Assembly (NCBI RefSeq): GCF_963682185.1
Contig: NZ_OY821667.1
Span: forward strand, 4,229,501-4,293,500
Reading direction: 5' to 3'
DNA length: 64,000 nt
From: an uncultured Cohaesibacter sp.
GTDB lineage: Bacteria > Pseudomonadota > Alphaproteobacteria > Rhizobiales > Cohaesibacteraceae
The notes below the pieces were generated by a model. That model was not told where the DNA came from. It saw only the letters and a list, made by a program, of their open reading frames with translations, and searched no databases. Positions 28,854 through 32,943 of this stretch are shown in pieces; positions within the stretch are counted from its first letter, which is position 1, and every line of letters starts with the position of its first letter. A program made the position numbers and the translations under genes.

Positions 28854-29258
28854 CTAGTCGTCTTCTTGTGGCAGATTGTCGGTGATGTCGTAATAATCGC
28901 CTTTGTGCGAAGCGAAAATATGCTTGGTCAGGCGCCGGCCATGCACATCATCAATGCAGCCCACGGAGACAGCAATTTCATCTCGCCATTCAGGATGTCG
29001 ATCCGCATGCCAGAAGAGCGACGAGCCGCATTTGGAGCAGAAGCCACGACGCGCAAATTCGGACGACTGATACCAGGCCAGAGCCTCTTGCCCCTTTTTG
29101 ATCACCAGATTGCTGAACTGGATCGTGATGCTGGGCCAGGCATGGCCGCCCCATTGGCGGCATTGCTTGCAGTGACACATCACCATGGGATTGGCATGAC
29201 CGGGAAATTCGAATTCAACGGCACCACAAAGGCACCGACCTGTCAGCATTTCATCCAT
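28854..29258 (-). CDS. GFA (glutathione-dependent formaldehyde-activating) family zinc protein
   Basis: 134 residues from the ATG at 29258, which has GCAGGAG seven bases upstream; the frame extends to 29282 without such a site. Zinc ligands typical of the family are CLCGAVEFEF, CHCKQC and CSKCGSSLFWHAD. Despite the name, the reaction of most members is unknown; some bind glutathione adducts. It stands alone between smc (convergent) and a methyltransferase gene on the same strand. Confidence 0.85.
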   Translation of the reverse strand: MDEMLTGRCLCGAVEFEFPGHANPMVMCHCKQCRQWGGHAWPSITIQFSNLVIKKGQEALAWYQSSEFARRGFCSKCGSSLFWHADRHPEWRDEIAVSVGCIDDVHGRRLTKHIFASHKGDYYDITDNLPQEDD

Positions 29259-29421
29259 GATATGTCTCCTGCTTTTCTGCATGCTATTCTTGCGCCGCGA
29301 CTATAGCGTCATCGGGCAGCAAGGGTCCAACATATCGTGCAAATTCATCCATAAGGGAAATTGATGCACCGCTCAGGCTTCTGCGCATATCGCACGCGTG
29401 CCCGAGCGGCAGGAAATTCAG

Positions 29422-30539: not shown

Positions 30540-31238
30540 ATGACCGACCAAATTTCCGCTGATCATCTCAAATTGACGCTGTATATCGCCAACAAGAATT
30601 ACTCATCCTGGTCTTTGCGTCCCTGGATTGCCATGAAGACCAAAAATATCGTCTTCACCGAGCATCTGCTGCAATTTGATGAGGCCACCGGCCACGCCCA
30701 TTTCATCGAATATTCACCGACCAAGAAAGTGCCAGCTCTGAAAATCGAAGAAGAGGGCAAGGAGCCTGTGATCATTTGCGAAAGCCTGGCTATTCTCGAG
30801 GTGATTGCAGATCTATTCCCCGAAGCAGGGCTCTGGCCCGTCGATGTCATGGAGCGCGCCAAGGCACGAGCCTTTGCCGCCGAAATGCATGGCGGCTTTT
30901 TCGGGCTGAGAGGCTCATGCCCGATGAATATCCGGCGAGAGATTAAACGGCTCGATCTGGATCCTTACAGCGCGGCCGCCGTGGTCAAGAATGTAGAACG
31001 GATCGAACAGATCTGGCGTGAGTGCCTTGATGCCTCTGGCGGCCCTTTCCTGTTCGGCTCCTTTGGCGTGGTGGATGCCATGTTTGCCCCGGTGATCAAT
31101 CGTTTTGAAAAATATGAACTCACCGACAGCGAGGTGTTCCATGCCTATCGCTTCGCCATCAAAACCCTGCCCGCCTGGAAGGAATGGGAAGAAGAGGCCC
31201 TGAAGGAGCCTTGGGTCGTCGAAGAAGACGAAGCCTGA
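30540..31238 (+). CDS. Glutathione S-transferase family protein
   Basis: 232 residues. The N-terminal thioredoxin-like domain begins LTLYIANKNYSSWSLRPWIAM, where the Ser of the YSSWSLRP stretch is the likely catalytic residue. The ES of ICESLAILEVIAD is the glutathione gamma-Glu contact. The helical C-terminal domain follows. This YSSWSLR subgroup is widespread in proteobacteria; substrate unknown. The acidic tail VVEEDEA is unusual but short. Confidence 0.87.
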   Translation: MTDQISADHLKLTLYIANKNYSSWSLRPWIAMKTKNIVFTEHLLQFDEATGHAHFIEYSPTKKVPALKIEEEGKEPVIICESLAILEVIADLFPEAGLWPVDVMERAKARAFAAEMHGGFFGLRGSCPMNIRREIKRLDLDPYSAAAVVKNVERIEQIWRECLDASGGPFLFGSFGVVDAMFAPVINRFEKYELTDSEVFHAYRFAIKTLPAWKEWEEEALKEPWVVEEDEA

Positions 31239-31311: not shown

Positions 31312-31821
31312 CTAGTCGAACAGGCGGTCGACTTCGTCCTGCGCGGTCGGGTGATCGATGGCCAGCATCCAGTCGGTTGCATTGGCTGTATCGTTGATCA
31401 ATGCACTGACACGATCAATGAGAGGCCGCACTTCAGTGGAAGCCATGAAGGCGACACTATCGAGAAACTCGTTTGAGAGATCGCCATTCAGATCCACGAT
31501 GCGTTCGATCAGCCCTTCAATCTTGACATCGATCTCATGCACCAGCGACTCCAATTGGTCACGGATTGCGGGCGGCACTGAATCGTAAAGGGAAATCGCG
31601 AGTTGTTTTTCCTTGAAGGTGGATTGCTGGAAATAGTCCGCATAGCCCATGGGGCGCCAGGCCACGATATCCTCGGCGCATTCGGGCATGGCTGACAGCA
31701 TCTCGATCAGCATCAGCACTTCATTGAAATGGTTGAGATAGTCAGTCGCAAGCAATGTCGATGGATTGATGTTGGCGTCCAGCAACAAATTCGCATCAGG
31801 AAGGGTAGACATTTCTGACAT
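31312..31821 (-). CDS. Unknown helical protein with CheZ/FliM-like C-terminal peptide
   Basis: 169 residues, acidic and mostly helical, with no signal peptide or clear membrane segment. I do not recognise a family over the body. The last ten residues, AQDEVDRLFD, closely resemble the CheY-binding tails of CheZ (QDxVDxLL) and FliM (QDEIDALL), and the tail of the CheZ in this window (SQDDIDALFG). A role in binding CheY or another receiver protein is therefore possible, but this is inference. It converges with the GST gene across 73 bases. Confidence 0.6.
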   Translation of the reverse strand: MSEMSTLPDANLLLDANINPSTLLATDYLNHFNEVLMLIEMLSAMPECAEDIVAWRPMGYADYFQQSTFKEKQLAISLYDSVPPAIRDQLESLVHEIDVKIEGLIERIVDLNGDLSNEFLDSVAFMASTEVRPLIDRVSALINDTANATDWMLAIDHPTAQDEVDRLFD

Positions 31822-32127
31822 CGGGTGACTCTCAACGCAACTTCATTGGCATTCAGGCGACATGGCCTGCCTCTTAAAAAGCGCTTTATGGACATAACAG
31901 GGCTTATATCTTCATGCCAATTGCCGCTAGATTTACGACATTGTGCAAGACATGTGCTCCCCGTTTCCTGTTGCCGGATATATGCACCAAGCGATTTTCA
32001 AAGACGGTCCAACTTAACCTTAAGGTGCTATAGTTTCCAAATACTTGACGTGGCCTGAGGTCGGTGAAAAAGATGAAACAGGATAAAGATTTAGCAAACC
32101 CTTTAGAAGAAATCGAATTGGACAATC
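31822..32127. other. Intergenic region before the SRAP-like gene
   Basis: 306 bases. A 21-codon frame starts at about 32072 and runs into the SRAP-like gene, but it has little support. Otherwise nothing is seen; the promoters of the two divergent genes must be here. Confidence 0.35.
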
Positions 32128-32943
32128 ATGACCGGTAGACTGCACCTTGTGGCGGAAGAGATTGAATTAATTAAATTTTTCGGCAGTTCGGAGTTGTTGC
32201 CCGGATTGCACAAAATGCCGCCTAGACATAACGTCGCACCGAGCAGTCCGGTTCTGACAATTACTCATGAATATGGTAAGCGCACCGCTCGGTTGATGAA
32301 ATGGACTTTTGTGCCTGATTGGGTAAAAGATCCGCGTGACTTTACGCAAATCAGCACTGCCCGCATGGAAACCGTCGAGAAGAAACCATCCTTCAAAAAT
32401 GCAATTCGGTACCGAAGATGTCTTGTGCCTGTGACCGGCTTTTATGAGTGGCAACGGCAAAAGGAGAGCGGCGAGGGTATCCCGTATTTCTTCAGGCGCC
32501 GCAATGAGGGCCTGCTTGCGCTCGCTGGTATTTGGGAAACATGGATGGGGCCAAATGGTGAGGAGTTTGATGGGCTCGCGTTGTTGACCGTTCCGTCAAA
32601 GCAGCCTTTCCGCACGATTTCCGAGAGGCTGCCTCTCATCATCCCTGAAGATGACCATGATACATGGCTGAACACCCGTTCCGGCCGTTTTAATGAAGCG
32701 CGTCCGTTGCTTAGGAGTGCTCCACCAGACGATCTGATAGCTTACCCTGTTTCCAATCGCGTCAATAACCCAAGCATTGATGATGCATCCTTGACGGACC
32801 CGATAAAAACCCCTCAGGGCGGAACAGCGCAGCTGATCACAGGAGACGTTGGCAATGAGACCAAGGGAAAGGCCTCTAAGGCGAAGAAGGAGAAAGACGC
32901 GAGGGGAAAGCCTGAGGACGATACTCAGTTGGACCTCTTTTGA
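32128..32943 (+). CDS. SRAP (YedK/HMCES) family protein with degenerate active site and clamp-binding tail
   Basis: 271 residues. The fold is recognisable from RHNVAPSSPVLTI, ARMETVEKKPSFKNA, RRCLVPVTGFYEW and LALAGIWETW. Canonical SRAP proteins start MCGR and use Cys2 to crosslink abasic sites, with Asn75, Glu105 and His160 (E. coli YedK numbering). Here the start is MTGR, the INAR motif is STAR (Thr77), and IHDR is ISER (Ser165); only the Glu of FYEW (107) remains. The last 40 residues are a charged linker ending in QLDLF, a perfect match to the beta-clamp consensus QL(S/D)LF. It may be a non-catalytic, clamp-tethered relative. The early codons are AT-rich. Confidence 0.85.
   Translation: MTGRLHLVAEEIELIKFFGSSELLPGLHKMPPRHNVAPSSPVLTITHEYGKRTARLMKWTFVPDWVKDPRDFTQISTARMETVEKKPSFKNAIRYRRCLVPVTGFYEWQRQKESGEGIPYFFRRRNEGLLALAGIWETWMGPNGEEFDGLALLTVPSKQPFRTISERLPLIIPEDDHDTWLNTRSGRFNEARPLLRSAPPDDLIAYPVSNRVNNPSIDDASLTDPIKTPQGGTAQLITGDVGNETKGKASKAKKEKDARGKPEDDTQLDLF

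Follow-up and report, generated by a model that had tools for sequence, protein, structure and literature searches.

The catalytic cysteine of SRAP proteins is called absolutely conserved in the available text of PMC3765255, and the contributions of the residues around it have been described for E. coli YedK. His160 is needed there for AP ring opening, and the H160A and H160Q proteins crosslink at least about 10-fold more slowly; with N75A, crosslinking is modestly affected at an internal AP site and stays incomplete at a 3′-PUA end (PMC9436759). The C2A and C2S proteins form a trappable Schiff base via the alpha-amine, and AP-DNA is cleaved by thiol-less SRAP. In the C2A background, E105Q reduces lyase activity 25-fold and H160Q 2.5-fold, and H160Q has no effect on Schiff-base formation. 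An H160Q protein with blocked Cys2 gives no cleavage (all according to the available text of PMC9436759). Removal of the initiator methionine has been attributed to the SRAP active site itself (PMC3765255, PMC10250235).

Here, we describe a natural SRAP lacking three of the four catalytic residues. The window, that is, the whole stretch of 64,000 nt that was analyzed, comes from an uncultured Cohaesibacter sp. whose genome is a single contig of 5.39 Mb with two SRAPs, in the following called paralogues A and B. Paralogue B, located in the window, is a SRAP variant, a member of the family as judged from its sequence and modeled fold but not by the catalytic definition. The gene and the codons at its catalytic positions are:

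32128..32943, + strand: SRAP paralogue B, without equivalents of Cys2, Asn75 and His160 (271 aa plus stop)
32131..32133, + strand: Thr2 codon ACC, replacing the catalytic Cys2 (alignment)
32356..32358, + strand: Thr77 codon ACT, replacing YedK Asn75 (alignment)
32446..32448, + strand: Glu107 codon GAG, the retained equivalent of YedK Glu105 (alignment)
32620..32622, + strand: Ser165 codon TCC, replacing YedK His160 (alignment)

The ORF is complete, with an ATG start, 271 codons and a TGA stop, and its product begins with MTGR. Family membership follows from the match to the Pfam SRAP model PF02586 (E 1.1e-55, 188.9 bits, gathering cut-off 27.1), in which residues 1-215 cover positions 1-214 of 214, and from the predicted fold: the AF2 model has a pLDDT of 87.6 and a pTM of 0.84, with residues 242-265 below 50, and Foldseek hits 1-21 are all SRAP structures, including the YedK C2A Schiff-base complex 8d2m. 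The entries 1zn6, 2f20, 2aeg, 2bdv and 2icu are named as SRAP in PMC3765255. In the alignment with YedK, translated from MG1655, Thr2 corresponds to Cys2, Thr77 to Asn75, Glu107 to Glu105 and Ser165 to His160, and the NVAP stretch occupies residues 35-38. A preliminary description of this DNA had put Thr2, Thr77 and Ser165 in the places of Cys, Asn and His and had stated that Glu107, NVAP and most of the SRAP fold are kept; the alignment bears out the residue assignments in full, Glu107 and NVAP included. Measured against the definition of a catalytic SRAP, position 2 is Thr instead of Cys, the Asn position (YedK 75) holds T, S or I and the His position (YedK 160) S or T across the ten variants introduced below, and Glu (YedK 105) is present as Glu107 in 10/10.

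How specific this loss is can be seen against a comparison set of 35 Cys-type SRAPs, YedK included and with three of the 14 A rows kept, in which 26 sites are conserved to at least 93%. At 22 of these family-conserved sites, among them Arg4, Asn35, Arg79, Glu81, Glu107, Trp108, Thr154 and Arg167, all ten Cys-less orthologues are identical to the Cys-type proteins, and the remaining four, Cys2, Asn77, His165 and Ala102, are altered in all ten, the catalytic triplet having turned into Thr or Ser and, once, Ile. The chance that four random sites of 26 include all three catalytic ones is ~0.0015 (23/14950), a figure that bears only on which sites changed, as it concerns a single ancestral event. 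The pattern in which Cys2, Asn77 and His165 were lost goes beyond chance. One member starting with MTNR and one with Ile77 deviate among the variants, so the pocket may drift. As a separate observation, a SRAP from a MAG (L038:6001-6759) carries Ala for the catalytic Glu but keeps Cys, Asn and His.

In terms of sequence, B combines the loss of Cys, Asn and His at a conserved locus with strict conservation of the other family sites, purifying selection and a conserved clamp-like peptide. The reading that we prefer, and hold at slightly better than even odds, is that B is a neofunctionalised, clamp-tethered SRAP that would recognize abasic ssDNA without a stable thiazolidine bond. The beta clamp would hold B at the replisome via its C-terminal peptide, the intact SRAP groove would recognize abasic or ss/ds-junction DNA, and B would release the DNA again instead of entering a long-lived thiazolidine crosslink, the permanent crosslink being left to the Cys-containing paralogue A. 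Should Met1 be cleaved off, the alpha-amino group of Thr2 could react with the AP aldehyde with the help of Glu107, giving a transient Schiff base or a labile oxazolidine; the DNA would then be bound reversibly, and strand cleavage (AP lyase) might follow. Against this reading, Asn35 and the conserved Arg residues may owe their conservation to folding only.

A thiazolidine is excluded by chemistry because there is no thiol at position 2, and the earlier statement that B cannot form the usual crosslink stands on this ground, in line with the available text of PMC9436759. Binding without reaction should not be assumed, since YedK C2A and C2S are still reactive (PMC9436759). By analogy with YedK, what B lacks is the thiol and the His that opens the AP ring, and the Glu that matters most for imine formation is still there. 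On the same analogy, some reversible chemistry, a Schiff base or AP lyase, may remain, and Thr2 and Glu107 appear compatible with a Schiff-base AP lyase if Met removal is assumed, with the ring-opening His absent. A methionine preceding Thr is generally removed by methionine aminopeptidase; if, instead, the SRAP domain itself removes it, B might keep Met1.

A different reading, which we regard as possible though clearly less probable than a reversible, clamp-tethered protein, takes B as a pure non-catalytic binder or scaffold for the clamp, or for abasic or single-stranded DNA, without any chemistry, Glu107 being structural only. The simultaneous loss of three of the four catalytic residues with 22 other family-conserved sites left in place, the intact predicted fold and the absence of the His that opens the ring in YedK (PMC9436759) all fit such a protein. 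It is at odds with the persistence of Glu107 in all ten variants, although L038 illustrates that a SRAP with Cys, Asn and His can have Ala there, and with the reactivity of thiol-less YedK (PMC9436759). Going in the opposite direction, Thr or Ser in place of the suicide Cys might have produced a clamp-tethered, reversible, turning-over AP-site enzyme at the replisome, either an imine/oxazolidine AP lyase or an exchangeable AP-site cap, with the permanent crosslink passed on to the second, probably acquired SRAP; we consider this rather unlikely, its odds being lowered by what is known of His160 in YedK and by the uncertainty over Met removal.

The tethering part of the preferred reading concerns the C-terminal end of B:

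32851..32922, + strand: tail residues 242-265, a variable linker, likely disordered (AF2 confidence below 50)
32926..32940, + strand: C-terminal QLDLF, fitting the beta-clamp-binding consensus (sequence motif)

The clamp-binding motif is Q-phi-x-[L/M][F/L] with an aliphatic phi, and QLDLF is reported to be the strongest pentameric clamp-binding peptide (PMC11139829, available text). A client of the beta clamp would be expected to carry this motif in a disordered or exposed segment, and QLDLF of B follows the stretch with predicted pLDDT below 50. Of the nine Thr2 variants, seven end in QLDLF and two in QFDLF, and the Ser2 variant ends in QLTLL; within the nine, 0/38 columns are invariant in tail 229-266 versus 4/5 in the end motif. 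All four Cys-type orthologues of the genus carry a motif match within the last 15 residues as well, so the clamp-like motif was inherited and does not speak for a new function. When the same C-terminal 15 residues were compared in 24 alphaproteobacterial SRAPs from outside the genus, the strict motif was found in 6, a version with Phe second in 2, the looser Qxx[LM][FL], often QGSLF, in 13 and none in 3, and there was no clamp-like motif in three non-proteobacterial SRAPs; both groups were fetched as relatives of B and are not a random sample. By the motif definition, QFDLF would be a less good and QGSLF a poor fit. Paralogue A and E. coli YedK are without the strict motif. Clamp-like C-termini (QLDLF, QMDLF, QMSLL or the looser QGSLF) were also noticed in the Cys-type SRAPs L017, L018, L020, L023, L024, L028, L029, L032 and others.

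For a background, we used 450 distinct ORFs with a length of 150 aa or more from the window and the SRAP-holding loci, some of which are surely not genes; 36 of the 450 end in Qxx[LM][FL]. In 21 of these the second residue is aliphatic or Phe, the other 15 have the loose form, and all 36 are SRAP genes, 33 by the signature [FY][FY]EW and the other three being the SRAPs L038, L042 and L043. Such C-termini, present in many normal alphaproteobacterial SRAPs too, suggest a role of some bacterial SRAPs at the replication clamp, much as HMCES acts with PCNA.

The B gene is present in 14 of 18 Cohaesibacter-like genomes of the same genus: nine encode Thr2 (the window's included), one Ser2, and four Cys2 together with Asn and His, so that a B without Cys, Asn and His occupies the locus in 10/18 genomes. 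The question raised at the outset of whether the substitutions occur together in a clade can be answered positively, as all three residues are replaced in each of the ten orthologues. Of the named relatives found, Cohaesibacter marisflavi is the closest, with 86% identity in the B protein. In a tree with the B sequences, built by a quick method without bootstrap and with the catalytic columns included, the nine Thr2 rows cluster together (SH-aLRT 99; 91 with the Ser2 row, below the 95 mark), the four Cys rows are sister to the Thr2 plus Ser2 group, and all 14 rows of the genus are united with 98. The Cys-less B proteins are best explained by one ancestral origin.

The locus itself is conserved. 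B adjoins a gene for a 169-aa protein, unk169, in 14/14 genomes, and a porin gene on the other side in 13/14 (the 14th, L016, ends early). The order SMC-GST-unk169-SRAP-porin-lipoprotein-LspA-IleS is present in the three loci that are long enough, Thr-type L033 and Cys-type L034 and L035, and in the sister genus, G018, a Cys-type SRAP lies next to the same neighbor unk169. The gene unk169 itself (31312-31821, − strand) occurs at the locus in each of the 19 genomes examined, whether or not a SRAP gene is there, and its product has no Pfam match at E 0.01. Also upstream of B, a GFA-family protein (PF04828) is encoded at 28854-29282 (− strand), separated by one methyltransferase gene from the GST-like gene (30540-31238). 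In G005, G007, G012 and G016, unk169 stands directly beside the porin gene with no detectable SRAP remnant between the two; B is thus dispensable in these four A-bearing genomes. The loci of the four B-less genomes (L073, L074, L075 and L076) have an ORF of 152-158 aa between the GST and unk169 genes, which by eye resembles a NUDIX protein.

Paralogue A of the window's genome (G000:C1:4089132-4089821; L001/L049) has Cys, Asn, Glu and His all in place and shares ~29% identity with B. A was found in 14 of the 18 genomes of the genus (E 1e-40), which yields ten genomes with A and a Cys-less B, four with A and no B, and four with a Cys-type B and no A, G018 being like the last. A Cys-type B is kept in 0/14 genomes with A and in 5/5 without it (G018 included), counts that are not independent events, as the four A-lacking genomes of the genus cluster in the unk169 tree (85/95), and that include two A-lacking genomes with completeness values of 64% and 90%. 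When the five A-lacking genomes were searched with the A protein at E 0.001, each gave a single match, the B gene itself. G018, also without A, stands apart from the A-lacking group in the unk169 tree on a very long branch, and the A label needs two changes on this tree, with one change in 16% of the bootstrap trees; the root and the number of events are unsure for these reasons. On plasmids, the best hits, in Agrobacterium pusense, Roseibium and Labrenzia, share 52-53% identity with A, and all 1981 records are below 60%. We infer that A was probably acquired horizontally.

The Cys-less B is under purifying selection. In pairwise codon-likelihood estimates, which are not independent because the pairs have branches in common, the core omega of B is 0.10-0.12 in seven Thr-type pairs, each with p ≤1e-9 against omega = 1, versus 0.21 in the one Cys-type pair. 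The tail reaches 0.26-0.73 in the Thr-type pairs and differs from 1 at p < 0.05 in 3/7. For the whole gene, the same eight genome pairs give 0.14-0.23 for B and 0.03-0.13 for A (the B pair G014-G011 was left out because of saturated dS); in this comparison of dN/dS with paralogue A, which had been proposed, B evolves faster. These numbers bear on the view that B is redundant beside A and on its way out, its conservation being residual. Its faster change, the lack of a Cys-type B in any of the 14 A-bearing genomes and the lack of any B in four of them would suit such decay, which we nevertheless judge improbable given the low core omega in comparison with the Cys-type pair, ten variants free of internal stops, 22/26 conserved sites untouched and an end motif kept on a drifting tail. 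A random scatter of substitutions, taken beforehand as a sign of decay, was not seen: the same four sites are changed in all ten variants.

The region upstream of the start codon contains two relevant features:

32033..32050, + strand: upstream block gtttccaaatacttgacg, containing TTGAC (conservation)
32104..32106, + strand: in-frame stop TAG upstream of the ATG (read by eye; 278-aa open frame)

The TAG lies 24 bases 5′ of the ATG with seven codons in between, the open frame of 278 aa exceeding the ORF by these 7 codons, and thereby excludes an upstream MCGR start. Eight further genomes of the genus also encode Thr2, by ACC, ACT or ACG, a ninth encodes Ser2, and all ten Cys-less B genes are open throughout, without internal stops, so Thr2 is not a sequencing error; neither a start-region error nor an upstream MCGR start, which could have undone the Thr2 claim, was found. 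That the substitutions stem from a misplaced start codon, a sequencing error or an incorrect gene model is thus ruled out for practical purposes by the in-frame TAG and by the nine other genomes of the genus in which position 2 is not Cys and Asn and His are replaced in each.

The block gtttccaaatacttgacg is conserved in the Thr2 genomes and partly in 3/4 Cys-type genomes and is a putative promoter element. A small upstream ORF, MKQDKDLANPLEEIELDNHDR, overlapping the start of B was considered and rejected; such an overlap is seen in four close genomes only, and elsewhere the ORF is shorter or absent. The ≤150 bases upstream of 15 B genes contain no LexA-like boxes (GTTC/GAAC halves spaced 7 and two looser forms) and, within this stretch, the B genes show no sign of SOS control.

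To estimate how rare such proteins are, we used a DNA pattern for M[T/S]GR SRAPs that covers Thr and Ser-AGY, with Ser-TCN, Ala and others outside it. In the order sample, at least 5/297 genomes matched, all of the same genus, and the Cys pattern matched in 138/297; the former are lower bounds, as the pattern recovered 5/6 known Thr-type genomes of the sample and missed G011 (MTNR). The phylum sample gave 2/299, the window's own genome and G331, the latter a chance match with stops in frame; among these 299 genomes there was no true M[T/S]GR SRAP outside the genus, again a lower bound for the Thr/Ser-AGY pattern. From viral contigs, 80 of 239 SRAP loci were kept, many of which look alike and are not independent: 79/80 read Cys-Asn-Glu-His, and L146 starts at the contig end, with an unreadable N-terminus. 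One genome of the order sample, G189, has five Cys-type SRAP pattern matches, of which C3:701592-701900 has an early in-frame stop (by eye). Among the matches listed for open-access titles and abstracts, there was neither a clamp-binding bacterial SRAP nor a natural Cys-less SRAP.

A natural clade under selection that lacks Cys, Asn and His but has Glu uncouples the recognition of the lesion from crosslinking and makes the role of SRAP without a covalent bond directly testable. Compared with B, paralogue A has the full catalytic set and no strict clamp motif in 14/14 genomes (a loose match in 3). Human HMCES shares the SRAP fold (6oov_A, TM 0.79 by target length) and has a PCNA-binding tail; unlike B, it contains the catalytic Cys, and in eukaryotes a PIP box would take the place of QLDLF. 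With Pol II and Pol IV, which carry a C-terminal CBM, B has in common the C-terminal Q-phi-x-[LM]-[FL] type of motif (PMC11139829), its own clamp binding being predicted. E. coli YedK resembles B in its fold (8d2m_B, TM 0.85, and 6nua_A, TM 0.84, by target length) and in Arg4, Asn37, Arg77, Glu79, Glu105, Trp106, Thr149 and Arg162, whose equivalents B keeps, and differs in having Cys2, Asn75 and His160 and in ending with ELIQPV, without a clamp-like C-terminus. The YedK C2A and C2S mutants (PMC9436759) likewise lack the position-2 thiol and keep Glu, but B, unlike these laboratory mutants, is natural and clade-wide and is changed at three catalytic sites; it resembles a YedK C2T mutant that is also without the His and Asn side chains.
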